This document shows positions 1 to 61,715 of a DNA stretch of 64,000 bases, piece after piece (position 1 is the stretch's first letter; each line of letters begins with the position of its first letter). The position numbers were made by a program, and so were the translations under genes. The stretch is from Actinomyces sp. UMB0138 (GTDB taxonomy: Bacteria; Bacillota; Negativicutes; Veillonellales; Veillonellaceae), in NCBI RefSeq assembly GCF_002849225.1, contig NZ_PKMC01000003.1, positions 248,001 to 312,000 of the forward strand, in the 5' to 3' direction. The notes below the pieces were generated by a model. It saw nothing but the letters and a program-made list of their open reading frames with translations, ran no database searches and was not told the origin of the DNA.

Positions 1-755
1 CCGCCATCTTCACGGCGCTCATCTTCCACAAGCAGGTATTGAGGGCGAGCAAAAAAGCCTGGTTCTACGGCTTTATTCTGGCGATCCTATACGTGGGCGC
101 GCAATACCTTGAATCGATCGGTCTAGCTACCGTAGATGCTTCCATTTCGGGCTTTATTACCGGCATGTACGCGGTGATGACCCCAATTTTGCTGCTGGTC
201 ATCTACCGACAGCCTCCCCGCCCAACCGTCATATACGCCTCTGTGGTTGCAACGCTGGGACTGGCGATCCTCTCGCTGCGCGGATTCTCTTTTGGCATCG
301 GCGAGATCTACACCCTTGCGGGCTCCATCTGCTATTCGCTGCATATCGTAATGCTCGGCCGTTTTTCGAAGCGGGCCGACTCCTCGACACTGGCATCTAC
401 CCAGCTCATCATGATGGGGCTGCTGTCGCTGGGGCTAGCGGCGCCGGGCGGCATCACTATCCCCCACACCGCCTTTTCCTGGTTCGCCCTGTTCTACATG
501 GCGCTACTGGGCGGCTCGCTGGCAATGCTGCTGCAAACCTGGGCACAATCACGTATTAGTCAGACCAGGGTGGCCATCATCATGACCACCGAACCGGTCT
601 TCGCAGCGATCACCGCAGTCATATTCGGCGGCGAATCAGTAACGATGCGTCTGCTTCTGGGCGGCGGGCTGATCGTAGCGGCGATTATCGCCTCGGAATT
701 ATCCTCGGCCCGCAAGGCAAAGAAGTACTCGGTTAGCTCGACGCCTAGTGCGTAA
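1..755 (+). CDS. EamA/DMT-family transporter, 5'-truncated by the window
   Basis: This is an inner-membrane drug/metabolite-type transporter; the substrate cannot be read from the sequence. The reading frame is open to the left edge (frame starting at base 3), so the true start lies outside the window; an internal TTG at 39 is not a convincing start. About seven to eight hydrophobic segments are visible in the 250 residues present, in the two-repeat pattern of EamA proteins, and the C-terminus ends in a basic tail. The last bases overlap the end of folE, which runs the other way, so the two genes are convergent and no terminator fits between them. Family assignment is fairly safe; any specific function would be a guess. 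Confidence 0.8.
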
Positions 756-1314
756 TTAGGCGCAATACCTCGGCACGAGTAGCCTGATTCCTTCGCATCT
801 GCCCGCGCAGTGCCGAGGTAACCGTTTTTGCCCCCGGCTTCTTGATGCCCCGCATCGTCATGCACAGGTGCTCGCCCTCTAGAACTACTGCCACCCCAGC
901 GGCATGCAGTTTGTCCGCAATGGCGTCTGCAATCTGAGCCGTAAGGCGTTCCTGCACCTGCGGCTTGCGGGCAAAGCCCTCGACGCAACGGGCGATCTTC
1001 GACAGCCCAGTGACCTTGCCGTGCGAGGGCAAATACGCCACGTTCGCCATGCCAAAGAACGGCAGCAGGTGGTGTTCGCACACTGAATAGAACGGGATAT
1101 CGCGGATCAGCACGATCTCGTCAGTGCCGACCTCGAACTGCTTTTCCAAATGGGCGCCCGGATCTTCGTGCAGACCCACCGACAGTTCGCGCCAGGCGCG
1201 CGCCACCCTGTCAGGGGTTTCCTCGAGTCCCGGCCGGGACGGGTCCTCGCCAATGGCACACAGCAGGTCATAAGCGGCCTGGCGGGCGCGCTCGTAATCG
1301 AAATTGTTACTCAT
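745..1314 (-). CDS. folE: GTP cyclohydrolase I
   Basis: FolE converts GTP to 7,8-dihydroneopterin triphosphate, the first step of folate synthesis, in the cytosol. The 189-residue length is normal. The zinc ligands are visible as C79 and H82 in [12 protein letters not shown] and C151 in EHLCMTMRG, followed by the family signature around [11 protein letters not shown]. The gene starts five bases after the stop of ftsH and is probably the last gene of the dacB-tilS-hpt-ftsH-folE run. In many actinobacteria folP, folB and folK follow; here the run ends against an unrelated convergent transporter, so the rest of the folate genes must lie elsewhere. Confidence 0.97.
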
Positions 1315-1319
1315 GGATT

Positions 1320-3338
1320 TTATTCGGTAGCGGAATCAATCTGCGGGGGAACGGGTTGGGACGGAGTCTGCGCATCCGCGTCGTTACCGATTGGGTCACC
1401 AAAGGTAGTACCCTCCACCGCGGCGTCCGCGTTGTAAGCCCACACGGCCCGCTCTGGCTGCTTGTGCACGTCGGCAAAGATCTCGTTTAGCTCGTTTTCG
1501 AGTACCGTTTCCTTTGCCAGCAGCCGTTCGGCGAGCCGGTCCAGCACGTGCCGGTTAGCGGACAGCACCTGCCACGCTTCCCTGTTGGCGCGTTCTAGCA
1601 GTGCCTGCACCTCGTGGTCGACGAGGGCGGCGAACTCGCCGGACATGCCCGAGCCCGAAGCCATCTCGCGGCCCAGGAACGGCTGGGTGTCCTCTGAGCC
1701 CAGCTTGATGGTGCCCACTTTGTCGGACATGCCGTAGTCGGTAACCATCTTGCGTGCCGTCTGGGTGGCCTTATCAATGTCGTTAGAGGCGCCCGTAGAC
1801 GGATCCTGGAAGATTAATTCCTCGGCGACTCGCCCGCCCATCGCGTAGACAAGTTCGTCGAGCAGCTGGTTGCGGGTCTTCGAATAGCGGTCCTCGTTCG
1901 GCATCACCATCGTGTATCCCAATGCGCGCCCACGCGGCAAGATAGTCACCTTGGTGACCGGATCGGTGTACCGCAACGCAGCGGCCGCAACCGCGTGCCC
2001 GCCCTCGTGATACGCAGTGACCAGCTTGTCGTGCGCCAGCATTACGCGCGTGCGCTTCTGCGGTCCCGCGATCACCCTGTCGATAGCTTCGTCGAGGGCG
2101 CGCTCGTCGATTAGGTCCGCATTAGAACGGGCCGTCAGCAGCGCGGCCTCGTTCAGAACGTTCGCCAGATCAGCACCGGCAAAGCCCGGGGTGCGCTTAG
2201 CAATCTGGCGCAGATCCACGGAATCCACCATGGGCTTGTTCTTGGCATGTACCTTCAAGATTTCGAAGCGGCCATTGATGTCGGGAGCCTCAACGGAAAT
2301 CTGCCGGTCGAACCTGCCCGGCCGCAGCAGCGCCGGATCCAGCACGTCCGGACGGTTAGTAGCGGCGATCATGATTACGTTCGTGTTCTCGTCAAAACCA
2401 TCCATCTCGACGAGCAGCTGGTTCAAAGTCTGTTCGCGTTCGTCATTGCCGCCGCCCATACCGGTGCCGCGGTGACGGCCCACCGCGTCGATCTCGTCAA
2501 CAAAGATAATCGCCGGAGCGTTCTGCTTAGCCTGATCAAACAGGTCACGCACACGCGAAGCGCCCACGCCCACGTACATTTCTACGAACTCGGAACCGGA
2601 CATGGTGTAGAAGGGCACCCCGGCCTCGCCAGCAACAGCCTTAGCAAGTAGAGTCTTACCGGTGCCCGGAGGGCCATACAGCAGCACGCCCTTCGGAATC
2701 TTGGCACCCAGCTGGTGGAACTTGCCCGGAGTGGACAAGAATTCGCGGATCTCTTGCAGTTCCTCAACGGCCTCGTCGACCCCCGCCACGTCAGTGAAAC
2801 GCACCTTCGGCGCATCGGCATCCTTCATGCGAGCCTTGGACTTGCCAAAGTTCATGATCTTGCCGGCCCCGCCCTGCATCCGCGAGGTGAGGAACCAGAA
2901 AATGCCCACAAACACGGCAATCATCAGCAACATCTGCACGATGCCCTGCCACCAAGACGGCACCGGGTACAGCGAGTTGTAGCCCTTGTCGAGCTTCGCA
3001 TCGGAAATGAGCTTCGCCAAATCCTTGGCCTGCCCATCGGTGTACTGGAACTGCACCTTCTTAGTCGGCTTCGGAGCAGACGCCAAGAACGACTTCTCTT
3101 CAGTGCGAACCTTCGGCTTGTATTCCTTCTTCAGATTCAGGGTAACCAGATGCGATCCATCATTGACCACGGCGCGAGCAACCGTGTCCCCCTTCAGCAG
3201 GTCCACGCCCTCGGACGTGTCGACCTCGGCAGGAGCAAAAAGACGCGTCGCCGCCCAAATAATCAACGCAATAATCAAAAACGGCAAAAACCATGCGAGA
3301 TAGTTACGCTTGGGCGCCTTTTTCTTAGCCGTCGCCAT
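1320..3338 (-). CDS. ftsH: ATP-dependent zinc metalloprotease FtsH
   Basis: Membrane-anchored AAA+ protease that degrades misassembled membrane proteins and some regulators. The 672 residues contain a first membrane segment (about 14-34), an extracytoplasmic region, a second membrane segment (about 131-150), an AAA module with Walker A GPPGTGKT (222-229) and Walker B IIFVDEID (277-284), the second region of homology near [17 protein letters not shown], and the zinc site HEGGH (444-448). The C-terminus ends in an acidic, low-complexity tail as is common in actinobacteria. It sits between hpt and folE, a conserved actinobacterial arrangement. The ATG start is followed directly by a lysine-rich cytoplasmic N-terminus and the first membrane segment. 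Confidence 0.97.
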
Positions 3339-3425
3339 TAATGGGATCCCTTCAAGTTGAGACTATGAACAAAAGCCTAGCGGGAAGTAGAACTGCCCCT
3401 ACCGGTTATGCGCTAGCGGTGAACA

Positions 3426-3995
3426 CTAAGCGTATACGTGCGGGGCCAAAGTGGCCACAAAGGGGAGGTTGCGGTACTGCTCCGCAAAATCGAGCCCATA
3501 CCCGACCACAAACTTATTTGGAATGTCGAAGCCGACGTAGCGCACGTCCAGGTCAGCCTTCATGGCTTCCTTCTTGCGCAGCGCAGCCGCGATCTGCACG
3601 GTAGCCGCACCCCTTGCCTTCAGGTTCGTGACCAGCCACGACAGGGTAAGACCGGAATCGATAATGTCCTCGACAATGAGCACGTCCCTACCCTGAATGT
3701 CAGAATCCAGGTCCTTCAGAATACGCACCACGCCAGAAGACTTAGTGCCGGAACCGTAAGAGGATACGGCCATCCAATCCATCAGAGTTTCGGTGTGCAT
3801 CTTGCGCAGCAGATCAGCTACCACCATGACGGCGCCCTTCAGGACTCCCACCACGATCGGGCGCTTGCCCTGGTAATCCTTGTCGATTTCCGCTGCCATT
3901 TCGGCTAGCCGAGCCTGCATCTGTTCTTCGGAGATAAGAATTTCTTCTAGGTCCGTGCCCATATCTTTTGCATCCACTCTCCTAATAATAGGCAT
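3426..3995 (-). CDS. hpt: Hypoxanthine phosphoribosyltransferase
   Basis: Purine salvage enzyme that joins hypoxanthine or guanine to PRPP to give IMP or GMP in the cytosol. The 189-residue length is normal. The PRPP-binding loop is visible as VLIVEDIIDSGLTL (EDIIDSG at 109-115), with the flexible-loop region SSYGSGTKSSG near 78-88. The gene follows tilS by about 44 bases and precedes ftsH by about 87 bases, matching the conserved tilS-hpt-ftsH order. No terminator is visible between hpt and ftsH, so co-transcription is likely. Confidence 0.95.
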   Translation of the reverse strand: MPIIRRVDAKDMGTDLEEILISEEQMQARLAEMAAEIDKDYQGKRPIVVGVLKGAVMVVADLLRKMHTETLMDWMAVSSYGSGTKSSGVVRILKDLDSDIQGRDVLIVEDIIDSGLTLSWLVTNLKARGAATVQIAAALRKKEAMKADLDVRYVGFDIPNKFVVGYGLDFAEQYRNLPFVATLAPHVYA

Positions 3996-4039
3996 AAATA
4001 CCTACCAGTGGGCCCGAGCAGTACCGGACTAGAACAAGA

Positions 4040-5119
4040 TCACCTTTCTGAAGTGGCCCGCAGCCACATCCGGCCCGTCTTTGCCTCGCGCAATGCCTGC
4101 CCTGCCGGCAGATCTACCGGGCCCTGGCCGTGCCAGTTGCTGACGAGGGCGTCGAGCGCCTGCAGGTGCGTGGCGGTAAGTTCCGTAAGACCCACCCGGG
4201 CGCCCGCTAGGCGAAGCACGCGTCTGCGCAGGGCTGGTAGGTGGCTGGCCAGCGCGTTTGCTTGTAGAAGTATCTGCCCGTCCTCGTCGGTCGCTACCTC
4301 GGCGAGGATGGTCTGGGCCATCGCTTCCAGGGCCTCGTCGTCTTGCCGGGCCAGGAGGGCGGATTTGGCTAGTGCGGGCGCGGCGTCTTTGCCCAGCGCT
4401 TGGGCTAGGGCGGGCAGGGCGCGCTCTCGCAAGGCAGCCCGGCGCAGCGCCTGCCCGTCGGCAGTTTTCCACGGCCCGTCCGCCTTGTTGGACGGATCCA
4501 CGACGTATTGGAGCCCAAGCCCGTTGCAGCAGGCTTCCGTGTCTGCCCGCCGCAACCCTAGAAGGGGGCGAATCCGCGAGTGCACGTGGCCGCCCTCGAA
4601 GCCCTGGCGCATGCCCGCCAACGAATGGGTGCCGGAGCCGCGCGCTAACGAGAGGAGGACGCCCTCGGCCTGGTCGTCTAGGGTGTGGCCGAGCCAGATG
4701 GGCGCGCCCGCGGCAGAAAGTTCGGCTGCCGCTCGGGCTAGTCCTTCGTAGCGGGCGTCGCGGGCGGCAGCTTCGGGGCCTCCGGCAGAGCCGACCTGCA
4801 CCTGCTCGCGCACTGCCTTGTCGGCTCCCAACCAGGTAAGTTTGCGTACTACTTCTTCGGCCTCGGCGGTGGATTCGGGGCGGATACCGTGGTCGACGGT
4901 GATCGTGTACACGTCGTGCCCGGCTCGTGAACCGGCGTCAATCAGGCAGGTGGCAAGCGCTAGCGAGTCGGCGCCTCCGGAACAGCCCACGACAATGGGT
5001 AGCGAGGGGGCGAGCGCGTCGAAGGTAGCTACTGCCCGCCGCAGCGCCAATGACACAGGCCGCACCTGGGCGGACGGAGTGGCTCCTACAAGTTCGCTTG
5101 CCTTCTTCATTCCCCTCAC
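4040..5119 (-). CDS. tilS: tRNA(Ile)-lysidine synthetase
   Basis: TilS attaches lysine to C34 of the CAU-anticodon tRNA-Ile so that it reads AUA; the reaction uses ATP. The PP-loop motif SGGADS is at residues 47-52 of 359, and the N-terminal ATPase domain is well preserved (VDHGIRPES, LGHTLDDQAEGVLL). The C-terminal part is shorter than in E. coli TilS, which is usual for actinobacteria. The start used here is a GTG that overlaps the dacB stop by four bases (GTGA), suggesting translational coupling; an ATG three codons downstream is an alternative but has a purine-rich run placed too close to serve as a good ribosome site. Confidence 0.93.
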   Translation of the reverse strand: MRGMKKASELVGATPSAQVRPVSLALRRAVATFDALAPSLPIVVGCSGGADSLALATCLIDAGSRAGHDVYTITVDHGIRPESTAEAEEVVRKLTWLGADKAVREQVQVGSAGGPEAAARDARYEGLARAAAELSAAGAPIWLGHTLDDQAEGVLLSLARGSGTHSLAGMRQGFEGGHVHSRIRPLLGLRRADTEACCNGLGLQYVVDPSNKADGPWKTADGQALRRAALRERALPALAQALGKDAAPALAKSALLARQDDEALEAMAQTILAEVATDEDGQILLQANALASHLPALRRRVLRLAGARVGLTELTATHLQALDALVSNWHGQGPVDLPAGQALREAKTGRMWLRATSER

Positions 5120-6591
5120 TTCAGTTCTGCGAATTCGGTAGCTACCGAATCGATGGCCTCAACTACCCCGCCGGCTGCCTCGTCGTCGTAGCCGTTTACA
5201 ATGATCGAAAATGCCAGTGGACGCCCCGAAGCGGTGTGTACGTAGCCGCTAAGGGAGCGGGCCGAATCGAGCGTGCCAGTCTTGGAGCGCACATTTCCGG
5301 TGCCCGCACCCGAAACCATCCGATTGTGCAGGGTGCCGTCCAGCCCAGCCACGGGCAGCATCGACGGCAGTGACCGCAAGGTGGGGTTCTTTGATACGGC
5401 CGCCTGCTGGAGCACCTTGGCCAGGGCGTGCGGGGAGATCTTCCCCTTGTCTGACAGTCCGGAGCAATCCCGCAGGAGGACCTCGGAGGGATCCACTCCC
5501 AGCTTGCCCACCGCCTCGCGCACCATGGTGACGGCGCTTTCGAAGCTGGGTTCCTTGCCCGCGTATACCAGCGCTGCTCGGCAAACCGTTTCAGCCATCG
5601 TGTTGTCGGAAGGCTTCAAGGTGTGGCGCAGCACATCGGTAACGGGAGCGCTGCTTACCTGGCCCACGACCGTGGCCGCTTTGGCGGCCTTGCCAGGGGT
5701 AGGCCCGTTCACGCTGATGCCCTGGGCGGCTAATTTTTCTTTGAAGGCAGCTGCTGCCCGTTGCGCCGGATCAGTCTGCAAGTCATTCTTGGAGGAATCC
5801 TGGCCCGCGTTCATGCCAAGACCTTGGATCTTGGTAACAAACTGCATGTACCCGTCCCAGTCCGCGTTGACCTGATCGGTACCGAAAGCAGAAGTGTCAT
5901 AGGTCAGCTTCACAGAGCCGATGCCCTGTTTATTCAGCGCCTGCGCGGTCTGGGCCGCCAAATCTGCCAGTCCAGCCCGCCCGTTGACGACGGCGGGATT
6001 CGATGAGCCCGCCGCGAGCATTTCGTCGCCGCCCGCTACCAAGGTCACCGTGTCCCCGGCAAAGACCGCCTTAGTTTTGAACGTGGTGTCTGCCGGCAAC
6101 GTCTGCAGAGCAGCCACCGCCGAAAGCACCTTCGTTGAAGAAGCAGGGGTGAGCGGAGTACCTGCGGCCACATTTGCCAATTCCTTGCCAGTGGCCACGT
6201 CCAGAACAGACACGCCCACGCGCAGGGAGGGCTCGACCTCGCCCTTGTCCTGGTCCGCATTCGGCTTCTCTTGGGCGTCCTCGGCATCGGCCTGCGCTTT
6301 AGCCGCGGCCCGCGCGTCGGTAGCCGCCTTCTTGATCTTTCCCGACAGGGAAGCTGCGATCTGTTGGACCTGCTCCGAGTTCGGTAACTCCCCCTTGGCC
6401 GCATCGGCCTGAGCCGGCGTCGGTTCGGCAGCCACGGCGGCAGCGGTAGGAACTGGTTGCGGCGATGGCGGCGCTGGTGAAAGCGTAAACACGCCCGGAA
6501 CTACGTCGTAAGCGTCCAGGGCGCCGTAGGTGATTGAACCGCCCACTAGCAGAAGCGTGCCAATAGTGGCTGCCGCTACTGTCTTTCGCAT
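5116..6591 (-). CDS. dacB: D-alanyl-D-alanine carboxypeptidase/endopeptidase, PBP4 family (peptidase S13)
   Basis: Low-molecular-weight penicillin-binding protein that trims or opens peptidoglycan cross-links outside the membrane. An N-terminal signal or anchor segment (about 5-25) is followed by a proline- and alanine-rich, then charged, linker of about 95 residues. The serine-hydrolase motifs are all present: SSTK (151-154, S151 nucleophile), SDN (328-330) and KTG (437-439). The order dacB-tilS-hpt-ftsH with divergent ppa is the standard actinobacterial context and supports the call. It is the first gene of a minus-strand run and its stop overlaps the tilS start. Confidence 0.94.
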   Translation of the reverse strand: MRKTVAAATIGTLLLVGGSITYGALDAYDVVPGVFTLSPAPPSPQPVPTAAAVAAEPTPAQADAAKGELPNSEQVQQIAASLSGKIKKAATDARAAAKAQADAEDAQEKPNADQDKGEVEPSLRVGVSVLDVATGKELANVAAGTPLTPASSTKVLSAVAALQTLPADTTFKTKAVFAGDTVTLVAGGDEMLAAGSSNPAVVNGRAGLADLAAQTAQALNKQGIGSVKLTYDTSAFGTDQVNADWDGYMQFVTKIQGLGMNAGQDSSKNDLQTDPAQRAAAAFKEKLAAQGISVNGPTPGKAAKAATVVGQVSSAPVTDVLRHTLKPSDNTMAETVCRAALVYAGKEPSFESAVTMVREAVGKLGVDPSEVLLRDCSGLSDKGKISPHALAKVLQQAAVSKNPTLRSLPSMLPVAGLDGTLHNRMVSGAGTGNVRSKTGTLDSARSLSGYVHTASGRPLAFSIIVNGYDDEAAGGVVEAIDSVATEFAELK

Positions 6592-6692
6592 CTATTCCGC
6601 CTCACAGTCCTGTTTTGTGTAACGACCAGTCTAACTGTACCGGTACCATTGGGTTATTATCGCATCGACCCAACTGTTGAAAGGGCTCTTAA
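6592..6692. promoter_or_regulatory. Divergent dacB/ppa promoter region
   Basis: This 101-base gap separates the divergent dacB and ppa starts. A -10-like TATTAT at 6655-6660 lies about 33 bases before the ppa ATG, and ppa has a GAAAGGG ribosome site just upstream of its start. A perfect ten-base palindrome, GTACCGGTAC, sits at 6637-6646 between the two presumed promoters and could be a shared operator; no regulator is known from the sequence. Confidence 0.4.
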
Positions 6693-7229
6693 ATGGAGTT
6701 TGATGTAACCATCGAAATCCCGAAAGGGAATAGGAACAAGTACGAGGTCGACCACGAAACTGGTCGCATCCGCTTGGACCGTATGCTGTTCACTTCTACC
6801 CGTTACCCAGACGATTACGGGTTTATCGACGGCACGCTAGGCGAGGACGGCGACCCGCTCGACGTTCTGGTGCTTCTTGAAGAGCCAACTTTCCCCGGCT
6901 GCGTCATCCGCTGCCGTGCCTTGGGAATGTTCCGCATGCGCGACGAGAAGGGCGGCGACGACAAGGTTGTTGCAGTTCCCACCGCTGATCAGCGCATGGC
7001 ATGGCGTACCGAGCTCGAGGACGTCTCTGAGTTCCACCGCCTGGAAATCCAGCACTTCTTCGAGGTGTACAAGGATCTAGAACCCGGCAAATCGGTCGAG
7101 GGCGCACACTGGGTTGGCCGCGAAGAGGCGGAAGAAGAAATTCGCGTCTCTATCAAGCGCGAACAGGATCGCATTGCTGCCGGCGGGCACGCAGTAAATC
7201 CGGTTCCGGTGATCGAGCCCGAGCAGTAA
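6693..7229 (+). CDS. ppa: Inorganic pyrophosphatase (family I)
   Basis: Cytosolic enzyme that hydrolyses pyrophosphate to two phosphates and so drives biosynthetic reactions forward. The 178-residue length is typical. The family I metal-binding signature DGDPLDVLV is intact, as are the upstream KYEVDHETG and DYGFIDGT stretches that line the active site. It is transcribed alone, divergently from dacB, and is followed by a strong hairpin terminator. Confidence 0.97.
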
Positions 7230-7250
7230 GCTTCACCTAAAAAGAGTTTT

Positions 7251-7273
7251 GGTCCACGCCGCCGGCGTGGACC
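7251..7273 (+). terminator. Intrinsic terminator after ppa
   Basis: A perfect ten-base-pair stem (GGTCCACGCC against GGCGTGGACC) with a three-base loop is followed by a T-rich stretch (ATTTCTTTT). It begins 21 bases after the ppa stop. Confidence 0.9.
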
Positions 7274-7354
7274 ATTTCTTTTCCCCGCCCACCGGCCGCC
7301 CTCAAGCTGGCGTCTTCGAGCTGGTGTCAAGGGAAGAGGCGTCTTAAATGGGGA

Positions 7355-7387
7355 GCCCCTTTGGGGCCGAGTGGCCGCCAAAGGGGC
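7355..7387 (-). terminator. Hairpin after the PfkB kinase gene
   Basis: A perfect ten-base-pair stem (GCCCCTTTGG against CCAAAGGGGC) encloses a smaller GGCC/GGCC stem. It lies 17 bases beyond the stop of the minus-strand kinase gene and is the likely terminator, although the run of Ts after it is short. Confidence 0.65.
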
Positions 7388-7403
7388 ATGAGATGGGAAA
7401 GTC

Positions 7404-8357
7404 CTACTTCAATTCCGGATGCCCGTCAGTTACCCGAGCTACGTCGGCGCGGTTCGGAGAGAAAGCGCCAAGCTTGGAAACGGTCAGGCCCGAGGTGACG
7501 GTGGCGCGGTGCAGCGCGGAAAGCACATCCGCCCACTTTGCCTCGCGCAGCTTCCTGCGAGCCTGCCCACTACCGGCAAGACCGGCATCCAGCAGTGCCG
7601 AGATCAGCCCGGCCATGAAGGAATCACCGGCGCCCACGGTGTCACCCAGTTCCACATTCAACGGGTCAATGACCAGCATGTCGCGTTCGCCGGCTAGCCG
7701 TGCGTAAGCACCCCACGGGCCACGAGTCGTAATGACCATGGCGGGCCCCATGGCCAGCCAGGAGCGCATGACATCTTCCACCGCGCGGTCAGGGTATAGC
7801 CAGGAAATATCCTCGTCGGAGGCCTTCACAATGTCGCAGAAGGAAATGATCTCTTCAATCCGGCTGCGCACCTGTTCCGGGCTACCCATCACGGACGGCC
7901 TAATGTTCGGATCGTAGGAAACAGTCCCGGTAAGAGCCGCTTCCTTCACCAGCCGCAGCACCTTCTTGCCACCCGGTTCCACCGTTGCCGCAAACGAGCC
8001 GGTGTGCAGGTGATCGTAAGTGTCGGTACGAGCCTGTTCCGGCAGGTCCCACAACAGATCGAACTCGTAGGTAGCGCGCCCCTCAGAATCGACGTGCGCG
8101 TAGGCCACGGTGGTGTGATCTGCACCCGAAGTACCTGGCAAGACATGCACGTCGCCCTCGGCTAGCGCCTTGGCCAGCTGCTGGCCCCGCTCGTCCTCGC
8201 CCCACCACGAGGCCAAGGTCGTGTCATGGCCCAGCTGGGCGATTCCGCGGGCCACATTCAGCAGCGATCCGCCCACGTATTCCTTTGCGGAACCGTCGCG
8301 TTCGATGCGGTCCATCAGGGCCTCTCCGACGCACAGCACGCGCGGACTTGCAGTCAT
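7404..8357 (-). CDS. PfkB-family carbohydrate kinase (fructokinase-like)
   Basis: Ribokinase-fold sugar kinase acting in the cytosol with ATP. The N-terminal GEALMD start and early glycine pair (YVGGSLLNVARG) are the sugar-binding region, and DTVGAGDSFMAGL near the C-terminus is the PfkB signature with the catalytic aspartate. The 317-residue length is typical. The closest functional class by eye is fructokinase, but the sugar cannot be fixed from sequence and no sugar transporter is adjacent. It is a single gene with its own ribosome site (AGGAGGAAAA just before the ATG). Confidence 0.85.
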   Translation of the reverse strand: MTASPRVLCVGEALMDRIERDGSAKEYVGGSLLNVARGIAQLGHDTTLASWWGEDERGQQLAKALAEGDVHVLPGTSGADHTTVAYAHVDSEGRATYEFDLLWDLPEQARTDTYDHLHTGSFAATVEPGGKKVLRLVKEAALTGTVSYDPNIRPSVMGSPEQVRSRIEEIISFCDIVKASDEDISWLYPDRAVEDVMRSWLAMGPAMVITTRGPWGAYARLAGERDMLVIDPLNVELGDTVGAGDSFMAGLISALLDAGLAGSGQARRKLREAKWADVLSALHRATVTSGLTVSKLGAFSPNRADVARVTDGHPELK

Positions 8358-8392
8358 TTTTCCTCCTTAGCGGGCAAGACGATTTGTGGCGA

Positions 8393-51864: not shown

Positions 51865-51867
51865 GCC

Positions 51868-52981: not shown

Positions 52982-52994
52982 CTTTGTCTTCTTT

Positions 52995-53780
52995 TTAGCC
53001 GAAGCGCCCGGACACGTAGTCTTCGGTTGCCTTGTTGGAGGGGTTCGAGAAGATCTTGTCGGTCTTGTCGATCTCTACCAGCACGCCGGGCTTGCCGGCA
53101 CCTTCCAGGTTGAAGAAGCCGGTGCGGTCAGAGACACGCGCCGCTTGCTGCATGTTGTGGGTGACGATGACGATCGTGTAGTTCTCTTTCAACTTGATCA
53201 TCAGGTCTTCGATCGCCAACGTCGAGATGGGGTCTAGTGCCGAACAGGGTTCGTCCATCAGCACTACCTTCGGGCGCACTGCCACTGTGCGGGCAATGCA
53301 CAGGCGCTGCTGCTGGCCGCCGGAGAGCGAAGAGCCGGGCCGGTCCAGCCTGTCCTTGACCTCGTCCCACAGGTTTGCGCTGCGCAGGGATTCTTCGACC
53401 AGCGCGTCTGCGTCAGACTTGGCTAGACGACGCGAGTTTAGCCGCACCCCCGCCAGCACGTTCTCGTAGATGGACATGGTGGGGAACGGATTTGCCCGCT
53501 GGAACACCATGCCTACTAGGCGGCGCACCTGTACCGGGTCCACGTCCTTGTCGTAAATGTTCTTGCCTTCAATTAGCACTTCGCCCTCGACGTGGGCGCC
53601 GGGGATCGCTTCATGCATGCGATCTAGAGTGCGAAGGAAAGTAGATTTACCGCACCCGGAAGGGCCGATCAGCGCGGTGATCGAGTTCGGCTCAATTTCC
53701 ATATTGACGCCGCGGACGGCTAGGAAATCGCCGTAGTAGATGTTTTCGTTGCGAACTTCAATGCGAGTAGACACTGCCAT
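52995..53780 (-). CDS. pstB: Phosphate ABC transporter ATPase
   Basis: ATP-hydrolysing subunit of the high-affinity phosphate importer, 261 residues. Walker [10 protein letters not shown], signature LSGGQQQRL and Walker [14 protein letters not shown] are intact, and the C-terminus [10 protein letters not shown] is the PstB hallmark. It is the last gene of pstSCAB; no phoU follows, and the DUF47 gene lies on the other strand beyond the terminator. Confidence 0.98.
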
Positions 53781-53795
53781 TTTCCTTTCGGGGTC

Positions 53796-54812
53796 TTAGT
53801 TGCGCCCCTTCGGGGCAACGGCCGTTGCAATTGCACGCGCAATAATGTTCAGGGCCATTACTAGGATGATTAGCGCGAGGGCGGCGGCCCAAGCACGCTG
53901 GTAGTTGATGTCGGCGATGCAAGTGCCACCGCCTTTACAGGGCACTAGGCCCTGCGAGTACTGCCGGTAGGCATACACCGGCAGCGTGGTCATCTGCCCC
54001 TTGAACGGGTCAAAGTTAATCCAGTTGACCAGGCCCGCGGTGAACAGCAGCGGGGCTGTTTCGCCAATGATGCGGGCGATTGCCAGCATGATCGACGTGG
54101 TGATGCCGCCAGCTGCGGTGCGCAGTACGACCTTCAGGATTACCCTCCACTTGGGCACGCCGAGGGCGAGTGCCGCCTCTCGTAATTCCTGCGGTACCAG
54201 CAGCAGCATTTCCTGACAGCCGCGCACCACGGTGGGGATCATGAGTACTGACAGTGCCACCGCACCTACGATGCCTGCCTGGTATCCGGGCTTTACTAGC
54301 AGCGCGAAGGCTGACAGGGCGAACAGGCCGGCGACGATCGAGGGGACGCCGGTCATGACGTCCACGAAGAACATGATTGCCCGAGCCAGCTTGTTGTTGC
54401 CGCCATATTCGGTAACGTACACGGCGGTGAATAGGCCAATTGGCGCCGATATGAGGGTTGCCAGGGCGGTGATGATCAGGGTACCAATGATGGCGTGGTA
54501 GATGCCGCCCGCATCCATGCCGCCCGAGACACCCTTCATGGACACTGCCACGAAGTAGGGGAAATCCCTGAGTAATCTGGCCCCGCCCCGAGCGACGGTA
54601 ATCCACAGCAGGGACACCAGTGGGATCATGGCCAGGATAAAGCAGATCGAAACCACTACGGTCGAGATCTTGTCTTTGATTGCCCTGCGTCGGTTCAGAC
54701 CCGGATCAGCAGGCGCGAACGGGTTATTCTTCGGGGCCTGCGGGCGGGCATCCGAGGACGAGGATGGGGCGAGCGCAGACGAGGAGCTGCGGGCCCTTGA
54801 CGTATCAGACAT
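53796..54812 (-). CDS. pstA: Phosphate ABC transporter permease PstA
   Basis: Membrane subunit of the high-affinity phosphate importer, 338 residues. The first about 45 residues are Ser/Ala/Pro-rich and probably unstructured. Six membrane segments follow, with the EAALALGVPKWRVILKVVLR coupling loop that contacts PstB. It follows pstC by nine bases. Confidence 0.96.
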   Translation of the reverse strand: MSDTSRARSSSSALAPSSSSDARPQAPKNNPFAPADPGLNRRRAIKDKISTVVVSICFILAMIPLVSLLWITVARGGARLLRDFPYFVAVSMKGVSGGMDAGGIYHAIIGTLIITALATLISAPIGLFTAVYVTEYGGNNKLARAIMFFVDVMTGVPSIVAGLFALSAFALLVKPGYQAGIVGAVALSVLMIPTVVRGCQEMLLLVPQELREAALALGVPKWRVILKVVLRTAAGGITTSIMLAIARIIGETAPLLFTAGLVNWINFDPFKGQMTTLPVYAYRQYSQGLVPCKGGGTCIADINYQRAWAAALALIILVMALNIIARAIATAVAPKGRN

Positions 54813-54821
54813 TGGATCCCC

Positions 54822-55802
54822 CTACTTTGTGCCTGTGCGGGCTAGAATCCAGCGCGCAAGCATGTTGACGATCATGGTGATGAAGAACAGGGCCAGACCG
54901 GTGGCGAAGAGGCCAGACAGGGCGAGGCCGGTAGATTCGGGCTGTTGCAACGCAATGTTGGCCGCAATGGTCGAGTGCTTGCCCGCTTCAAGAATGTGGA
55001 ACGAGTAGCTGGCGCCAACCGACAGCACCATTAGCACTGCCATGGTTTCGCCGAGCGCGCGTCCGAGCCCCAGCATGGATGCTGAGACGATGCCGGAGCG
55101 GCCGTGCGGCAGCACTGCCAGGCGAATCATTTCCCACCTGGTGGCACCAAGGGCCAGTGCTGCTTCTTCATGCAGCCCCGGGGTCTTTAGGAAAATTTCG
55201 CGGCTAATCGAGGTGACAATGGGAAGAATCATGACGGCTAGGATCACGGCGGCCGACGAGATGGTGCGCCCGGTCGGAGAGGCCACCCCGCCAAATAGGG
55301 GGAACCAACCGAAGTGGGCATTGAGCCACTTATTCAAAGGCACTAGCTTCGGCACTAGCCAGAGGGCGCCCCACAGGCCGTAGATTACCGAGGGGATAGC
55401 TGCCAGCAGATCCACCAGGTACCCCAGGGTTTGCGCCAGCTTCTTGGGCGCGTAGTGGCTGATGAAGAGGGCGATCCCGATTGCAACCGGCACAGCCATC
55501 AACATTGCCATGCCAGAACCTAGCAACGTACCGAATACCTGCGGCATCGTGAACTGCCAGATGTTTACGTGACTTGCCGACCCCATGGTGGTAAACACTT
55601 TGCCCTGCGCCAAGATCGCATCCTTGGCTTGCAGCAGCAAGAACACTGCTACCAACGCCAATGTGGCCAAAATGGTGATACCTGCCAGCAGGGCGATGGC
55701 GCGGAATACAGCGTTACCCGTTTTACCCGTTCCTTTGGAATCGGTCAGCAAGTTAGCTTCTGATCGCTTGACCGTCATGAACTTCCTACTTCCAACTCTC
55801 AT
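54822..55802 (-). CDS. pstC: Phosphate ABC transporter permease PstC
   Basis: Second membrane subunit, 326 residues, with six membrane segments and the coupling loop EAALALGATRWEMIRLAVLP. The long first extracytoplasmic loop is normal for PstC. It is separated from pstS by 50 bases that contain a perfect stem-loop, so pstS can be made in excess of the membrane subunits. Confidence 0.96.
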   Translation of the reverse strand: MRVGSRKFMTVKRSEANLLTDSKGTGKTGNAVFRAIALLAGITILATLALVAVFLLLQAKDAILAQGKVFTTMGSASHVNIWQFTMPQVFGTLLGSGMAMLMAVPVAIGIALFISHYAPKKLAQTLGYLVDLLAAIPSVIYGLWGALWLVPKLVPLNKWLNAHFGWFPLFGGVASPTGRTISSAAVILAVMILPIVTSISREIFLKTPGLHEEAALALGATRWEMIRLAVLPHGRSGIVSASMLGLGRALGETMAVLMVLSVGASYSFHILEAGKHSTIAANIALQQPESTGLALSGLFATGLALFFITMIVNMLARWILARTGTK

Positions 55803-55808
55803 GCGAAA

Positions 55809-55840
55809 GCGTTCGGTAGCGGTTTCCCACTACCGAACGC
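55809..55840 (-). terminator. Stem-loop between pstS and pstC
   Basis: GCGTTCGGTAG (55809-55819) pairs perfectly with CTACCGAACGC (55830-55840). It starts 13 bases after the pstS stop and, with only a short T stretch, probably acts as a partial terminator or mRNA stabiliser. Confidence 0.75.
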
Positions 55841-55852
55841 CTCGTTGCATAA

Positions 55853-56968
55853 TTAGCCGATCTTGATCTTGTCTAGGCTCTTCTGAACCTTCTGTCGCAT
55901 CTCGTCAGAAATCGGGGCAGAGCCTGCGCTCTCGGCAGCGGCCTTCTGGCCCTCCTTGGAGGAGACATACTCCATGAAGGCCTTTACTAGGTCGCCCTCT
56001 TCCTTTTCGTACTTGGAGCAGACGATCTCGTAAGAGATCATGATCAGCGGGTAGGCGCCCTCTTCCTTAGGAACGCGAACCACGTCCAGGGCCAGGTCGC
56101 CATCTGCGCGATCCTTGGCCGGCTCGGCGATGTCCGCAGCCTTGGCAGCGGTTTCCTGCGACGGAGCAGTGTAACCGTCACCGGACTTCAAAGAAGCAAT
56201 GCCCAGATCGTCGCCTGCCTTAGAGAAGTCGGCGTAGCCGATGGTGCCCTCGGTGGACTGTACTGCCTGGATCAGGCCAGAGGTCTTGTCACCGGTCTCG
56301 CCACCAGCAATTGGCCAGGTCTTGTCGGCTTCGTCAGTCCACACGTCCCCAGCGGCTTCGTGAAGGTAAGAGGTGAAGTTTTCGGTAGTACCGGACTTGT
56401 CAGAACGGTGAACCGGGGTGATTGCCAGATCGGGTAGCTTGGCATCCGGGTTGGCCTTGGCAATGGCCGGATCGTTCCAGTTCTTGATTTCGCCCTTGAA
56501 GATCTTGGCAACTACGTCAGGATCCAGGTTCAGCTTCTTGACGCCCTTGATGTTGAAGACGACGGCTACCGGGGAAATGTAGGTGGGCAGATCGAAAGCA
56601 TCGGCGCCACAGCGATCCTTGGCCTTCTTTACTTCGTCGCCCTCGAGGTATGCGTCGGAACCGGCCCACGCTACCTGCTTGCCAATGAACTGTTCAATGC
56701 CAGCGCCCGAGCCAACTGCACCGTAGGTGATCTGGGCATCGGGGTTGTTTTCCATGAAGGTCTGAGTCCAGGTGGTCATTGCCGACTCCTGTGAGGAAGC
56801 GCCCGCACCCTTCAGGGAACCGGATACGGATTCGCTCTGCTGCGAAGTCTTGTCATTGCCGTCCGCCTTTTCGCCAGTAGCGTTGTCGGAACCGCAAGCA
56901 GCTAGTGAGGTGACCGCGAAGGAAGCGGCTGCAGCCACACCCAGGAACTTGTAAAACTTCTGATTCAC
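55853..56968 (-). CDS. pstS: Phosphate-binding lipoprotein PstS
   Basis: Extracytoplasmic phosphate receptor of the Pst system, 371 residues, with lipobox LAAC (C25). Phosphate contacts can be seen in GAGASSQ near the N-terminal lobe, HRSDKSGTTENF in the middle and the preceding WAGSDAYL. Length and layout match actinobacterial PstS. It is first in pstSCAB and lies downstream of a four-repeat PHO box. Confidence 0.97.
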   Translation of the reverse strand: MNQKFYKFLGVAAAASFAVTSLAACGSDNATGEKADGNDKTSQQSESVSGSLKGAGASSQESAMTTWTQTFMENNPDAQITYGAVGSGAGIEQFIGKQVAWAGSDAYLEGDEVKKAKDRCGADAFDLPTYISPVAVVFNIKGVKKLNLDPDVVAKIFKGEIKNWNDPAIAKANPDAKLPDLAITPVHRSDKSGTTENFTSYLHEAAGDVWTDEADKTWPIAGGETGDKTSGLIQAVQSTEGTIGYADFSKAGDDLGIASLKSGDGYTAPSQETAAKAADIAEPAKDRADGDLALDVVRVPKEEGAYPLIMISYEIVCSKYEKEEGDLVKAFMEYVSSKEGQKAAAESAGSAPISDEMRQKVQKSLDKIKIG

Positions 56969-57039
56969 TTGTGATACTTCCTATTCTTCGTACCGAATGG
57001 GAGGGCCTAGGCCCTGACATGTACAAGGTACGGAAGTCA

Positions 57040-57079
57040 GGTGTAGATAAAGTTCAACCCAAGTGAACAGTTGGTGAAC
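57040..57079 (-). promoter_or_regulatory. PHO box (PhoP direct repeats) upstream of pstS
   Basis: On the minus strand four heptamers start exactly 11 bases apart: GTTCACC (57079), GTTCACT (57068), TTGAACT (57057) and CTACACC (57046). This matches the 11-base direct-repeat units bound by actinobacterial PhoP, and lies 72-111 bases ahead of the pstS start. Induction under phosphate limitation is expected. Confidence 0.8.
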
Positions 57080-57157
57080 AAACTCGATTTACAGTTGTGA
57101 CGTGCACATACGCTAACGGCGGTGAGTTAGAACACTCTAATGATTCGGTTTCTTACC

Positions 57158-58456
57158 TTACGCGCGCACCAGTTCGAGGGCGACTACCACCGGTCGGCAT
57201 TCCAGCTGCGCTTCCCGATCTACCGCAGCGGGAGCCGAGACTGCCTTGACAGGCTGAGCCTTCGACTTCTTCGCAGGCTTGGTGGTGCGCAGGGCCGACC
57301 CCTTGGTGGGGAGCGCTACCGGAGTTCCCTTCTTACCCGCCAGCAGCGCGGGCGACGGGCCCTTCTTCTTCGGCTTGGCCTCGTGCTCCAGTTCCGGGCC
57401 GCCCTCGTAAGCGACGGGCACTTCCCCACTGTCAGACAGCAGATGCGCCACGGGCGTGGGCAACGGATCGTCCTCGGCAAGAGGCACGAGCGCGATGTGG
57501 GCAACCAGCATTTGCGCGGTGTGCAGATACGGGTCTTCCTGCGGCAACTGCCGCGTAATAGCGTTCGGAGTGATCCCGGCTAGGGCTCCGACGAGGGCGG
57601 GCAAAGTAGGCCGGTGCACGCACACGCCCCTGGCCTGCCCGTCCGCCAGCCACTTCTTGGCCAGTTCGCGCACGGCAGTCCCGTCTGCCGCATGGGCAGC
57701 CTCGGTCAGATCCGCGAGCGCGGTAAGAGGCGCGCCAGTGAGGGTGGCAAAAGGAGCCACGGTCTGGAAGCAGCGCCGCCACGGCGAGGTCAGTACCTGG
57801 CCGATGCCATAGGCGGACAGGATCGGAACCAGGTTCTTGGTTTGCCCGACACCCTTGCGAGCGAGCGGGCGGGCCGATTCTTCGCCCTCCCACTTCTTGC
57901 GCCCTACCGCCTTGGCGTGGCGCATGATCAGCAGCGGCTGGGTTTGTGCGGTGCGGTTACGAATGTGCGCAACCGCCTCGTCGAGTAGACGCTGGTCCCC
58001 TCGCCGGGTAAGCATTTTGCGGGCTTTAGCAGGCTTCGCCCACTTGGTCTGATCGATTTCAGAGATGGGGGCACGCTTGGCGAGCGGACGGCCAACCATT
58101 GCCGGCTCACTGACATCTAGCTGGCCCAGCCAGTAGCGCACCTCTTTGGTGTGCCCGACGCCCAGCCGGTACCGCTGTGTCTGCAACGGCACGCCCAGGC
58201 GCACCGCAAAGCCGGTTTCCTCTTCGACCTCGCGGACAGCGGTAGCCACTATGTGTTCACCGCGTTCCATCTTGCCCTTCGGCCACGACCAATCGTCGTA
58301 GCGGGGCCGGTGCACGATCAGCACCTCAATGTCGGCCTCACTGCGCGGAATCTGCGTTCCCGGGATTGTCCTGCCACCTTGGCGCAACCGCCACACAATA
58401 GCTCCACCTGAACGCACAATACGGGAAACAGGCGGCCGAGGGCGGGGCCTTGACAT
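57158..58456 (-). CDS. NUDIX hydrolase fused to a histidine phosphatase (MutT1-like)
   Basis: A 432-residue two-domain enzyme. The NUDIX box G-x5-E-x7-REVxEExGF lies at residues 61-83 (GKMERGEHIV to EEETGF). A SixA/phosphoglycerate-mutase-type domain follows, with the phospho-acceptor motif RH at 179-180 in LLIMRHAKAV. The same fusion occurs in mycobacterial MutT1, which cleans oxidised guanine nucleotides and acts on diadenosine polyphosphates. The last about 100 residues are lysine-, proline- and alanine-rich with no domain seen. It lies between pstS and ppk1 on the same strand; a link to phosphate metabolism is contextual. Confidence 0.9.
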   Translation of the reverse strand: MSRPRPRPPVSRIVRSGGAIVWRLRQGGRTIPGTQIPRSEADIEVLIVHRPRYDDWSWPKGKMERGEHIVATAVREVEEETGFAVRLGVPLQTQRYRLGVGHTKEVRYWLGQLDVSEPAMVGRPLAKRAPISEIDQTKWAKPAKARKMLTRRGDQRLLDEAVAHIRNRTAQTQPLLIMRHAKAVGRKKWEGEESARPLARKGVGQTKNLVPILSAYGIGQVLTSPWRRCFQTVAPFATLTGAPLTALADLTEAAHAADGTAVRELAKKWLADGQARGVCVHRPTLPALVGALAGITPNAITRQLPQEDPYLHTAQMLVAHIALVPLAEDDPLPTPVAHLLSDSGEVPVAYEGGPELEHEAKPKKKGPSPALLAGKKGTPVALPTKGSALRTTKPAKKSKAQPVKAVSAPAAVDREAQLECRPVVVALELVRA

Positions 58457-58541
58457 TGGACCATCCTTTCATTACCGGCATGCCGGATAGCTAATTCTAG
58501 TTGTTAACCCTACCCGCCCTTGCCGGTGAATGCCGAAACGT

Positions 58542-61037
58542 CTACTTACGCCCCTTGACACGCTTGTTAGCCTGCTCCATCAAATACGTCTGAATATCCA
58601 GCAGCGGCTGGCCTTCTTTGTCTTCGATGTGCCGCTTCCAAGTCCCATCCGCCTGCAGGTGCCAGCTGGAAACCTTCTCGGAAGCCTCCAGCTCTACCAA
58701 GCCTGCCAAATGTTCGATCATGTCAGGATCAGTGATGCGGATTAGTTCTTCGACGCGCCTGTCCAGGTTACGGTGCATCAGGTCAGCCGAGCCGATCCAC
58801 ACTTCGGTGTCTCCACCGTTGCAGAAGGAATACACGCGCGAGTGTTCCAGATACCGCCCCAGAATGGAGCGGACGCGGATATTGTCAGAGACGCCCTCGA
58901 TCGGGGCACGCAATGCGCAAATACCGCGCACCACAATATCTACCGGGATGCCCTCCTGGGAAGCGTGGTAGAGGGCATCAATGATCGCTTCATCTACCAG
59001 CGAGTTCATCTTGAAGCGAATCCAAGCCGGCTTGCCCGCACGCTTGTTCTCTATTTCGCGGTTGATGCGCTCCAGTAGGCCCGGCCGAATGGAACGAGGC
59101 GCCACCAGCAGGCGGTGGAAGGTGGTCAGCGGCGCAAACCCGGACAGCTGATTGAACAGGCGGGTCAGATCCTGGGCTACGTCGCGGTCGCAAGTCAGCA
59201 ACCCCAGGTCCTCGTACCCGCGCGCCGTCTTGGGGTGGTAGTTACCGGTGCCCACATGGCAGTAGCGGCGCAAACCGTCAGATTCCTGGCGCACCACCAT
59301 CGACAGCTTGCAGTGAGTCTTCAACCCCACCATGCCGTAGACCACATGCACCCCGGCGCGTTCTAGTTTGCGGGCCCACCCAATGTTGGCCTCCTCATCG
59401 AAGCGGGCCTTAATCTCGACAATCGCCAGCACCTGCTTGCCAGCCTGGGCAGCGTCGATAAGTGCCTGCACGATCGGCGAATCGCCCGAGGTGCGATACA
59501 ACGTCTGCTTGATCGCCAGCACCCTCGGATCTTTAGCCGCCTGGGTAACAAATTGTTGCACCGAAGTGGAGAAGGAATCGTAGGGGTGGTGCAGCAGCAC
59601 GTCGCCGTTGCGGATCGACTCGAAAATGTCCGTAGGAGTGGCGGATTCGACCTCGGCAAGACCCGCGGCCGTAACCGGCAAAAATGGGGGGTACAGCAGA
59701 TCGCGAATGTCCAGGTCGTGCAGGATGTTCAGGCAAGTCAGATCCAGCGGCTCCGGCAACCGGAATACGTCTGCCATCGAGATCTCGAGTTTTACCACCA
59801 GGAAGTTCAGCACGAAATCGCTAATACCTTCCGACACTTCCAATCGCACCGCCGGCCCGAAACGGCGCTTCAACAGCTCCGTCTCCATAGCCTGCAGCAG
59901 GTTCTCGGCGTCGTCCTCTTCAACCTCCAGGTCCTCGTTACGAGTGACCCGGAAGGTGTGGTATTCCAACACTTCCATTCCGGGGAACAGGTGATCCAGG
60001 TGGTGACCAATAACGTCTTCAATAGTGACGAAGGTGGCGCCCTCGGCCGTATCCGATGCCTCTTCGGGCCGAATGCCATCTACTACCTGGTCAACCGAAA
60101 CAATACGCGGTAGCCCCTCAGGCACCTTCACGCGGGCAAAGTGCTGCTTGCCGGAAACGGGGTTGCGCAGCACAACCGCCAGGTTCAGGGACAGACCTGA
60201 GATATAGGGAAATGGGTGAGACGGATCCACTGCCAACGGGGTGAGCACCGGGAAAATCCGCTTGCGGAAGTAGCGGTGCAGCTGATGGCGCATTTCCTGG
60301 TCTAGGTCTTCATACTTGCACAGGTGTAGCCCTTCCCTGTCGAGGGCGGGCAATAAGGTTTCCTGCACAAAGTCGGCTTGGCGGCGGGTTAGCTTCTGTG
60401 CCCGGTCGGTAATGCCCGTCAGTACCTGCCGCGGGCTGAGGCCGGAGGCAGATGGGCGGGCGATGCCGGCGGCGATGCGACGCTTTAGCCCGGCTACGCG
60501 CACCATGTAGAACTCATCCAGGTTCGAGGTGACGATGGTGGTGAACCAGGCGCGCTCTAGCAGGGGCAGGCGAGTGTCTTCGGCCTGTTCCATTACGCGC
60601 AGGTTGAAGTCCATCCACGATAGTTCGCGATCGCCAAAGCGGCCCTCGGGCAAATTCACTTCCCTAGCGGGAGTCTTGGGTGGCTCCGGAACCTCCTCGG
60701 CCGGCGGGATGGGAGCGGGAGTGAGCGGGGTGGGCTCTGCCTGCTCGCTTTCTTCGGGCTCGTCCTCGAATTCGGAATCTTCGTGTTCGTGGCCGGGGAA
60801 CTGGGAAGGATCGGCGGTGAAGTCTTTCGATTCGGCCGATTCAAAGCCTGATTCGTTTACGGCATCCGGCTTGGCAGCGGCCTCATCCGCCTCGGCCTCT
60901 GCCGCTACTTCCTGGGCGGGGCTTCCTTCCCGTTCCTGCGGCTCTTCAGCGGGGACACCTCCGGCCTGGGCGGCAGGATGGGAAAGTGAGTCCTGGTTAT
61001 TAGTCTCGGGAATTTCCATACCGAAAGCGTTCCTCAT
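58542..61037 (-). CDS. ppk: Polyphosphate kinase 1
   Basis: PPK1 polymerises the terminal phosphate of ATP into polyphosphate. The core begins at [20 protein letters not shown] (about residue 132) and includes [32 protein letters not shown] with the catalytic histidine, and [22 protein letters not shown]. The first about 125 residues are an acidic Glu/Pro-rich extension not found in E. coli PPK1, making this 831-residue form longer than usual. Start ATG at 61037 has AAGGGG eight bases upstream. It follows the 222-residue unknown gene by nine bases. Confidence 0.96.
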
Positions 61038-61046
61038 ATTTACCCC

Positions 61047-61715
61047 TTAGTTAAGGTTGTGGTTTGCCGCGGCGGTTGCTGCGGCCTCAAAATCATCAGC
61101 GGTCTTGGTCAGAGCCGAAGCCCTCCGAGTCACCTGGTCTGCCAACTCGTCCTTATCAGACGTAATCCAATCCGGGCCCGCAGCACCGGCGGCCAAAATG
61201 TGCATTACCTGTGCGGCCACCGCCAGGCGTTCGCCTACCCAATGGAGCGGTTCTTCGACCTCGTCAGGAGCCCCCGCCAGCACCTGGTTGATCGCCCCGA
61301 AAGCCTGATCGAACGGAGGCGGGTTCTTCACGCCGTGCGCCCGCTGCGGCGCGGCCAACCCCTCGTTATAGCGCTGCTGGGTGGTTTCTCTGTCCCGCCT
61401 TGCCCATTCGCGCAGCAAGTACAGCCGCCAGAGGGCGCCAGGCAGCGTAGAGGCGGGCTGGCCCGACCACAGTTCGGCCACCAGATCAACATTGCCTGAT
61501 CCGGCTATCTGCCGCAGCCTGGGAACCAGCACCTCGGGGGTGGATATGGCATCGCCCAGCGTCATAGGCTTGTCAAAATGACCGTCAAAGGTGCCCAGCA
61601 ACAGTTGCGCGGTAGTGTGCGCAATGTCGGAACGCAGCGCCGGGTCAGCATCCCCCACAATGTTTTCGGCATCTTCGGGTTCAAGCATCGCCGGCCGACG
61701 AAAACGGGCAGACAT
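61047..61715 (-). CDS. Unknown alanine-rich helical protein upstream of ppk
   Basis: A 222-residue cytosolic-looking protein, mostly helical and rich in Ala, with no signal peptide or membrane segment. I do not recognise a family. Tryptophans in ELWSGQ, ALWRLYLLREWARRDRE and LHWVGERL are spaced in a way that suggests conserved helix packing. It has its own AGGAG ribosome site and is nine bases ahead of ppk, so they share a transcript; a part in polyphosphate control is possible only by proximity. Confidence 0.65.
   Translation of the reverse strand: MSARFRRPAMLEPEDAENIVGDADPALRSDIAHTTAQLLLGTFDGHFDKPMTLGDAISTPEVLVPRLRQIAGSGNVDLVAELWSGQPASTLPGALWRLYLLREWARRDRETTQQRYNEGLAAPQRAHGVKNPPPFDQAFGAINQVLAGAPDEVEEPLHWVGERLAVAAQVMHILAAGAAGPDWITSDKDELADQVTRRASALTKTADDFEAAATAAANHNLN

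Follow-up and report, generated by a model that had tools for sequence, protein, structure and literature searches.

A short iterated word in the window

The 64,000-nucleotide stretch considered here, called the window throughout (positions 248,001 to 312,000 of contig NZ_PKMC01000003.1, Actinomyces sp. UMB0138), holds 49 genes as called with a simple, approximate codon-score caller, and 90% of it is coding. Its polyphosphate kinase has its best named relatives in the Actinomycetaceae (Schaalia cardiffensis and a metagenome-assembled genome, MAG, both 71%) among the matches listed, which may omit the nearest records. Spread through these genes, and in a few places between them, is a short word, CGAGGGCG, which an earlier note made from the letters of the stretch had singled out as highly iterated. 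That claim was borne out and proved an understatement: the 8-mer matches 79 times on the two strands (44 plus, 35 minus) against 5.8 expected from 100 dinucleotide shuffles (standard deviation 2.4, maximum 14), and at k=7 as at k=8 it heads the over-represented words. The seven-letter core GAGGGCG, for which the note had estimated about 100 copies in both orientations against 15 to 20 expected, numbers 116 on both strands within 41..61437, the 79 included, where dinucleotide shuffles give 18.2.

Exact plus-strand copies start at 1622, 2093, 4144, 7097, 9662, 10291, 13473, 14575, 16676, 18213, 18725, 20354, 23906, 25850, 26924, 27532, 31618, 32695, 33929, 34388, 35112, 37452, 37728, 38781, 39489, 39704, 41440, 45188, 45614, 46237, 46387, 47663, 47834, 49197, 49829, 50765, 51525, 51696, 53876, 54161, 57175, 57592, 58437 and 60341; those on the minus strand start, in plus-strand coordinates, at 2000, 3206, 4591, 4660, 8153, 10540, 11489, 13937, 16215, 18229, 19034, 19379, 21947, 23051, 24952, 29307, 30286, 30532, 30739, 32153, 34733, 36112, 40633, 41554, 42007, 42109, 42115, 44507, 45303, 49563, 53582, 56638, 57400, 58892 and 60038, the whole set spanning 1622..60348. 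The five single sites quoted earlier, and the overlapping same-orientation pair CGCCCTCGCCCTCG on the minus strand (42109..42122), read as the note had them. Three of the 79 copies are clearly intergenic (18213, 18229 and 50765), the last standing alone on the plus strand (50765..50772) where no frame of at least 150 amino acids (aa) covers the site; four further copies left outside genes by the caller fall within an ABC-transporter frame (44023-45870). Two inverted pairs that had been placed in presumed terminators proved unequal. The one at 18208..18241 is a perfect dyad of two inverted exact 8-mer copies (GTAGTCGAGGGCGGCTTAAGCCGCCCTCGACTAC), intergenic and terminator-like, whereas the one at 21619..21654, likewise intergenic and terminator-like, consists of seven-letter cores only (GGAGGGCG...CGCCCTCC; AAAGGAGGGCGG...CCGCCCTCCTTT) and lacks the full 8-mer. 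The gene between these dyads (18258-21410) encodes a 1,050-aa protein with FG-GAP repeats. Further variants of the word in the window are CGAGGACG (28 copies), CGAGGTCG (17) and CGAGGCCG (18). Two other words are also frequent there: the palindrome GATCATGATC, counted six times against 0.1 expected (strands summed, that is, three sites), and ATCATGAT, counted ten times against 0.8 and seen too in several Streptomyces loci.

Genome-wide statements refer to the nearest genome, G001 (one contig of 2,217,156 bases), in which 98% of the 31-letter words sampled from the window recur, and samples of it to 380 kb taken in 20-kb stretches. The genome-wide count that the note had suggested as a check gives 1,475 copies of CGAGGGCG in G001 (766 plus, 709 minus) and 193 of the word with its letters reversed (108 and 85). 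In the 380 kb the word is again the most over-represented, with 228 copies of the 8-mer against 28.9 under an order-3 Markov model. Its density is 1.23 per kb in the window and 0.60 per kb in the G001 samples, the codon null being also higher for the window.

The earlier note had seen a single fixed 8-mer; two positions of the word in fact vary, and from its one-letter neighbours in the 380 kb it reads [C>A,T]GAGG[G,A>T>C]CG in full. Fold values over expectation in G001 are 11.9 for C, 5.3 for A, 5.0 for T and only 1.6 for G at the first letter, and 11.9 for G, 11.2 for A, 4.7 for T and 2.4 for C at the sixth. The other six positions (2-5 and 7-8) are strict, substitutions there dropping to 0.4- to 2.2-fold, and the one-letter variants at these positions are not depleted, with the exception of position 7 and of a single variant at position 8. 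The flanks of the word carry little information in the window or in G001, and because flanking letters barely match between copies, these are not copies of a mobile repeat. Related genomes carry the word in dialects that differ at the fourth letter, a G dialect, CGAGGNCG, to which the window and G001 belong, and a C dialect, CGACGNCG. In the 380 kb of G001 the dialect word is found 492 times against 125 expected, an excess of about one per kb.

Excess over codon usage

A word so common in genes could simply follow from codon usage, from the context of codon pairs or from base composition, and in the form C|GAS|GNC|G it resembles preferred Glu/Asp codons followed by GNC. Consistent with such an origin, 220 of the 267 genic copies of CGAGGGCG lie in the two phases best tolerated by proteins, the excess is merely 1.25- to 1.5-fold in G039 and G161 (at least 70% G+C), and CGACGNCG reaches only 1.3- to 1.4-fold in Cellulomonadaceae-type loci. 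Synonymous nulls of rising strictness speak against it. Against 40 synonymous shuffles of the window and G001 samples, every one of the six coding phases has an excess of CGAGGGCG (by factors of 8.0, 6.4, 4.8, 2.9, 11.6 and 6.5; three phases have fewer than ten copies). A context-keeping null, which preserves codon usage, the amino acid, the first base of each codon and the two bases that follow it, still leaves 72 copies against 15.4 in the called genes of the window (4.7-fold) and 195 against 36.3 in those of G001, with each of the six phases, including the four less tolerated ones, above expectation, several on small numbers; in the window's genes the degenerate CGAGGNCG numbers 135 against 35.1. 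The variant CGAGGACG is an exception in one phase, with 0 copies against 0.4 expected.

Outside called genes, CGAGGNCG numbers 58 in G001 against 9.8 expected, some of these copies being really coding because only 80% of G001 was called coding. The dialect word there reaches 3.9 to 11.9 times the Markov expectation in ten genomes (G001, G091, G006, G071, G184, G132, G033, G128, G025 and G185), 2.8 times in G039 and 2.2 times in G161. Under the context-keeping null, mid-G+C genomes show a 3.2- to 6-fold excess of exactly one dialect, the other standing at 0.5 to 1.04. In these genomes a codon artefact is largely refuted; above 70% G+C it is not fully so, and dialect calls there are on weaker ground. 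Copies are thus neither accounted for by codon nulls nor limited to one codon frame, in keeping with the earlier statement that they occur in several frames and between genes.

Dialects and related words

Genomes other than G001 were sampled with 11-100 kb, and a survey of 60 related genomes in 24 genera drew on 11-380 kb of each, with family and genus labels assigned by software and a dialect called at z of at least 3. For conservation in relatives, another of the proposed checks, it places 16 genomes in the G dialect and 25 in the C dialect and finds neither in 19, although some of the 19 may be misses because many of them were sampled by 11-20 kb only. By genus the division is seven G, twelve C and five neither, with none of the 24 showing both. 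In a ComEC and HolA tree the G genera (g24, g20, g16, g10, g12, g1 and g6) and the C genera fall mostly in separate groups, and seven genera mix carriers and non-carriers. The context-keeping null gives CGAGGNCG at 3.5- to 6.0-fold and CGACGNCG at 0.5-1.04 in G091, G006, G071, G184 and G132; conversely, CGACGNCG is 3.2- to 5.4-fold in G033, G128 and G025 and 2.8-fold in G185, with CGAGGNCG at 0.70-0.99.

The dialect word also emerges when no word is specified beforehand. It ranks first in 10 of 15 genome samples in an unbiased scan of fewer forms. A wider scan took in 7-mers, 8-mers and 8-mers that leave one letter open, each scored against the context-keeping null; there it or a close form comes first in all ten clear-dialect genomes scanned and in 10 of 18 overall. 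The other eight genomes have the word weakly or not at all: CGAGGCG stands out in G047 and G159, a CGACGA-type word in G049 and weak CGAGG-type words in G016; for G068, G118, G148 and G031 the 7- and 8-mer scan against the same null found no replacement word above noise. A further form, TGACGNCG, is enriched in two loci, one from Arcanobacterium and one from a MAG (47 against 10.0).

Of 16 groups of named loci, five have CGACGNCG as their top word and another two have it in second or third place. The five are the Micrococcaceae (130 against 59 in three named loci), Trueperella (3.8-fold), Actinomyces (1.8-fold), Cellulosimicrobium/Isoptericola and Oerskovia with its allies (1.4-fold each). It is 1.3-fold in Jiangella-type loci, has z below 2.3 in those of Bifidobacterium, Sediminihabitans/Luteimicrobium and Timonella/Jonesia, and is too rare for scoring in Mobiluncus and Arcanobacterium; the named loci of Streptomyces (360 against 382), Demequina and Kineosporia/Kineococcus show no excess of it, and CGAGGNCG is 1.38-fold in the Streptomyces loci. 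Taken singly, the Micrococcaceae vary: Arthrobacter koreensis gives a strong CGACGNCG signal (49 against 13.9) and Kocuria polaris a weak one, and of three genomes that are Micrococcaceae-type by protein identity, G308 has GGACGCG (30 against 5.0) without CGACGNCG excess, G362 has GACGNCGT (16 against 4.1) and G371 has weak CGACGNCG (22 against 8.7). Besides its dialect word, G184 (L110, L149-L151) has a second over-represented word, CAATANCG (CAATATCG/CGATATTG 26 against 3.1). The Demequina loci L053 and L061 show ACGATGC (44 against 10.1) and GACGATG (31 against 7.1), both weaker under synonymous nulls and possibly another word of the same kind.

Orientation, spacing and pairing

Balanced orientation, which the earlier note had read from the window, holds with respect to replication: in 48 stretches with clear GC skew the G dialect lies 411 times on the leading and 375 times on the lagging strand (0.523, confidence interval 0.487-0.558), and the C dialect, minus its palindromic form, 259 and 257 times. 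In G001, words that match it in composition do lean toward the G-rich strand (1.20). These counts rule out polarity of the KOPS/AIMS type, that is, a strand bias to the terminus. Spacing, which was also to be checked, is under-dispersed in the window (variance/mean 0.40-0.46 in 2-kb bins), and even spacing failed as a general feature in four other genome sets.

Pairs of copies at most 40 bp apart comprise 15 convergent, 8 divergent and 11 same-orientation pairs outside called genes, and 89, 77 and 151, respectively, within genes. The convergent excess outside genes, with two such pairs in the window, is mild, on small numbers, and far below that of the Neisseriaceae. One G001 prophage is poorer in the word than expected (7 against 13.2, P 0.048); the word-poor region is a head module of terminase, portal, protease and capsid genes (L084:3563-13513, near 0.30 Mb of G001).

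Competence, pilus and AdnAB-like genes

The competence genes that the note had proposed to look for are widely present. In all 18 loci read, including those of the word-less genomes G139 and G148, comEA adjoins comEC, and comEA was found in each of 58 stretches chosen around comEC. ComEC itself is present in 196 of 200 genomes, the four without it being fragmented or incomplete, and its presence is for that reason uninformative as a discriminator. All 18 genomes tested for pilus-type proteins of the T2SSF family have them, 16 with matches above the cut-off, and a Tad/Flp-type gene order was read by eye in four T2SSF loci. In 18 of 18 genomes there are also two neighbouring long PDDEXK_1 frames (1,011-1,406 aa, with one of 2,597 aa; 2 of the 36 have an internal stop), which appear AdnAB-like by their arrangement, not by a specific model. 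A T2SSF pair stands beside these genes in 12 of the 18; as a marker of the word it was discarded, G071, G132 and G033 carrying the word without the pair. In G001 what looks by eye like a Tad-type pilus operon adjoins the AdnAB-like genes (G001:C1:1585698-1594116; L174, L165 and L188), with two T2SSF proteins, a 58-aa Flp-like protein and further small pilin-like proteins.

Interpretation: a candidate self-recognition word

There is, in our estimation, about an even chance that CGAGGGCG, in its full form, is a genome-wide self-recognition word of the DNA-uptake type in Gram-positive bacteria. A putative surface DNA receptor, either a minor pilin of a Tad/Flp pilus or ComEA, would prefer word-bearing double-stranded DNA, which the pilus, ComEA and ComEC would import and which homologous recombination would exchange for resident alleles. 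Because word-bearing fragments would be taken up more often, the word would spread by molecular drive wherever protein sequence allows, irrespective of strand and gene frame, and lineages would drift to dialects of their own (CGAGGNCG, CGACGNCG, TGACGNCG, CGAGGCG or GGACGCG). Balanced orientation, an excess of about one copy per kb at the level of DNA, one dialect per lineage with the core conserved, and the comEA, comEC and pilus genes all fit such a process. Micrococcus luteus is described as transformed through comEA/EC and Flp pili (PMC6370729, PMC8467076). Its family, the Micrococcaceae, carries forms of the word (CGACGNCG, GGACGCG), which counts in favour of uptake.

Several observations weigh on the other side. 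The comEA-comEC and T2SSF genes do not co-vary with the word, because they are retained in the word-less G139 and G148. In G001 comEC is split into two reading frames of 136 and 315 aa (L103:6659-8096; G001:C1 862,659-864,096), which may be a loss in this strain or a fault of the assembly, and is a single frame in its relatives G028 (494 aa) and G057 (476 aa). The excess is often small above 70% G+C, ranging from none in G193 (1.1) to 3.0 in G185, and the excess factor here, about 4 to 12, lies below that of Haemophilus. Pairing in terminators appears rare, spacing is no more even than random in G001, G033, G091 and G071 (variance/mean 1.09-1.49), and no report of transformable Actinomycetaceae was found among the papers listed in searches of the openly licensed literature.

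The word could instead be the Chi of the actinobacterial helicase-nuclease AdnAB, which would halt degradation at a broken or incoming end and start RecA loading, so that self DNA would be marked inside the cell rather than at its surface. We consider this rather unlikely. The AdnAB-like gene pairs of all 18 genomes tested argue for it, as does the likeness to the Chi words of RecBCD/AddAB, the word being short, directional and non-palindromic, over-represented, species-specific, G-rich in the G dialect and chromosome-wide. Chi in Escherichia coli favours the leading strand by roughly three to one, a bias that may not be universal; the 48 stretches with clear GC skew show none. No Chi is known for AdnAB, and G148 and G031 keep the AdnAB-like genes but have no word above noise. 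Streptomycetes possess AdnAB (PMC4824097), and their loci lack the CGACGNCG excess, though not that of CGAGGNCG. Whether and how AdnAB is controlled was called unclear in a 2026 paper (PMC13309787), which leaves room for an actinobacterial Chi.

It is doubtful to a greater degree that the word binds a nucleoid protein or one that organises the chromosome, or that it is a word like cyanobacterial HIP1, maintained by selection or by some bias of repair that has nothing to do with uptake or Chi. Chromosome-wide spread and defined degeneracy would suit any sequence-reading protein, and HIP1, a very frequent, frame-independent 8-letter word, is a precedent for such words without settled function. 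Known organising words are strand-biased (KOPS) or far rarer (parS and the like), a repair bias gains little support because neighbours at the strict positions are mostly not depleted, and the word-poor prophage fits self-marking better. The earlier note had likened the word both to uptake sequences and to HIP1; orientation, density, DNA-level excess, dialects and competence genes fit the former, but HIP1 is a palindrome (GCGATCGC) and the present word is directional save for its CGACGTCG form. That the word merely follows from codon usage, from codon pairs or from base composition is, after the synonymous nulls, very improbable.

Comparison with known uptake sequences

If the word serves uptake, a receptor specific for it would be expected, as ComP is in Neisseria and as ComN is predicted to be in the Pasteurellaceae. 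Like the uptake signal sequences (USS) of the latter family, the word has no strand preference. It resembles them further in its spacing of about 1 kb and in the division of one family between two dialects, and differs in that the USS is a 9-letter core with adjoining AT tracts, the flanks here being nearly uninformative. Uptake sequences of H. influenzae lie about 1,000 bp apart (PMC7811141), and two USS dialects are described within the Pasteurellaceae (PMC12616744, PMC7811141). The DNA uptake sequences (DUS) of the Neisseriaceae number about 900 to 6,000 copies per genome, are the most abundant repeat in N. meningitidis, and occur in coding and intergenic DNA in dialects that share a core and are constant within a species (PMC3630211). 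Copy number, placement and dialects around a core are alike in the present case; unlike the DUS, the word is shorter, more degenerate (six strict letters) and apparently seldom paired in terminators, its hosts are Gram-positive with Tad/Flp-type pilus genes, and its role in uptake is a predicted one.

No earlier description of such a word was recognised among the papers listed in searches of the openly licensed literature on uptake sequences, on AdnAB with Chi, or on competence in Actinomyces, Schaalia, Trueperella and Rothia, and papers containing the letters CGAGGGCG were unrelated among the matches listed. It is probable that order-wide self-DNA words with the core GA(G/C)G-(N)-CG divide the Actinomycetaceae, Micrococcaceae and their relatives into dialect groups, as the first uptake-sequence system outside the Neisseriaceae and Pasteurellaceae and the first in Gram-positives, with a competence machine built on a Tad/Flp pilus as its reader, or, if the word acts within the cell, as the first Chi of AdnAB.

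In the uptake and the Chi reading alike the word would mark self DNA, and both are directly testable with short DNA fragments. Were it a Chi, it would answer whether and how AdnAB is controlled. Strong preference for uptake sequences is described for two Gram-negative families (PMC7811141); if the words found here serve uptake, Gram-positive actinobacteria would share this form of self-recognition, with a different pilus, and gene exchange among them would meet barriers marked by the dialects.

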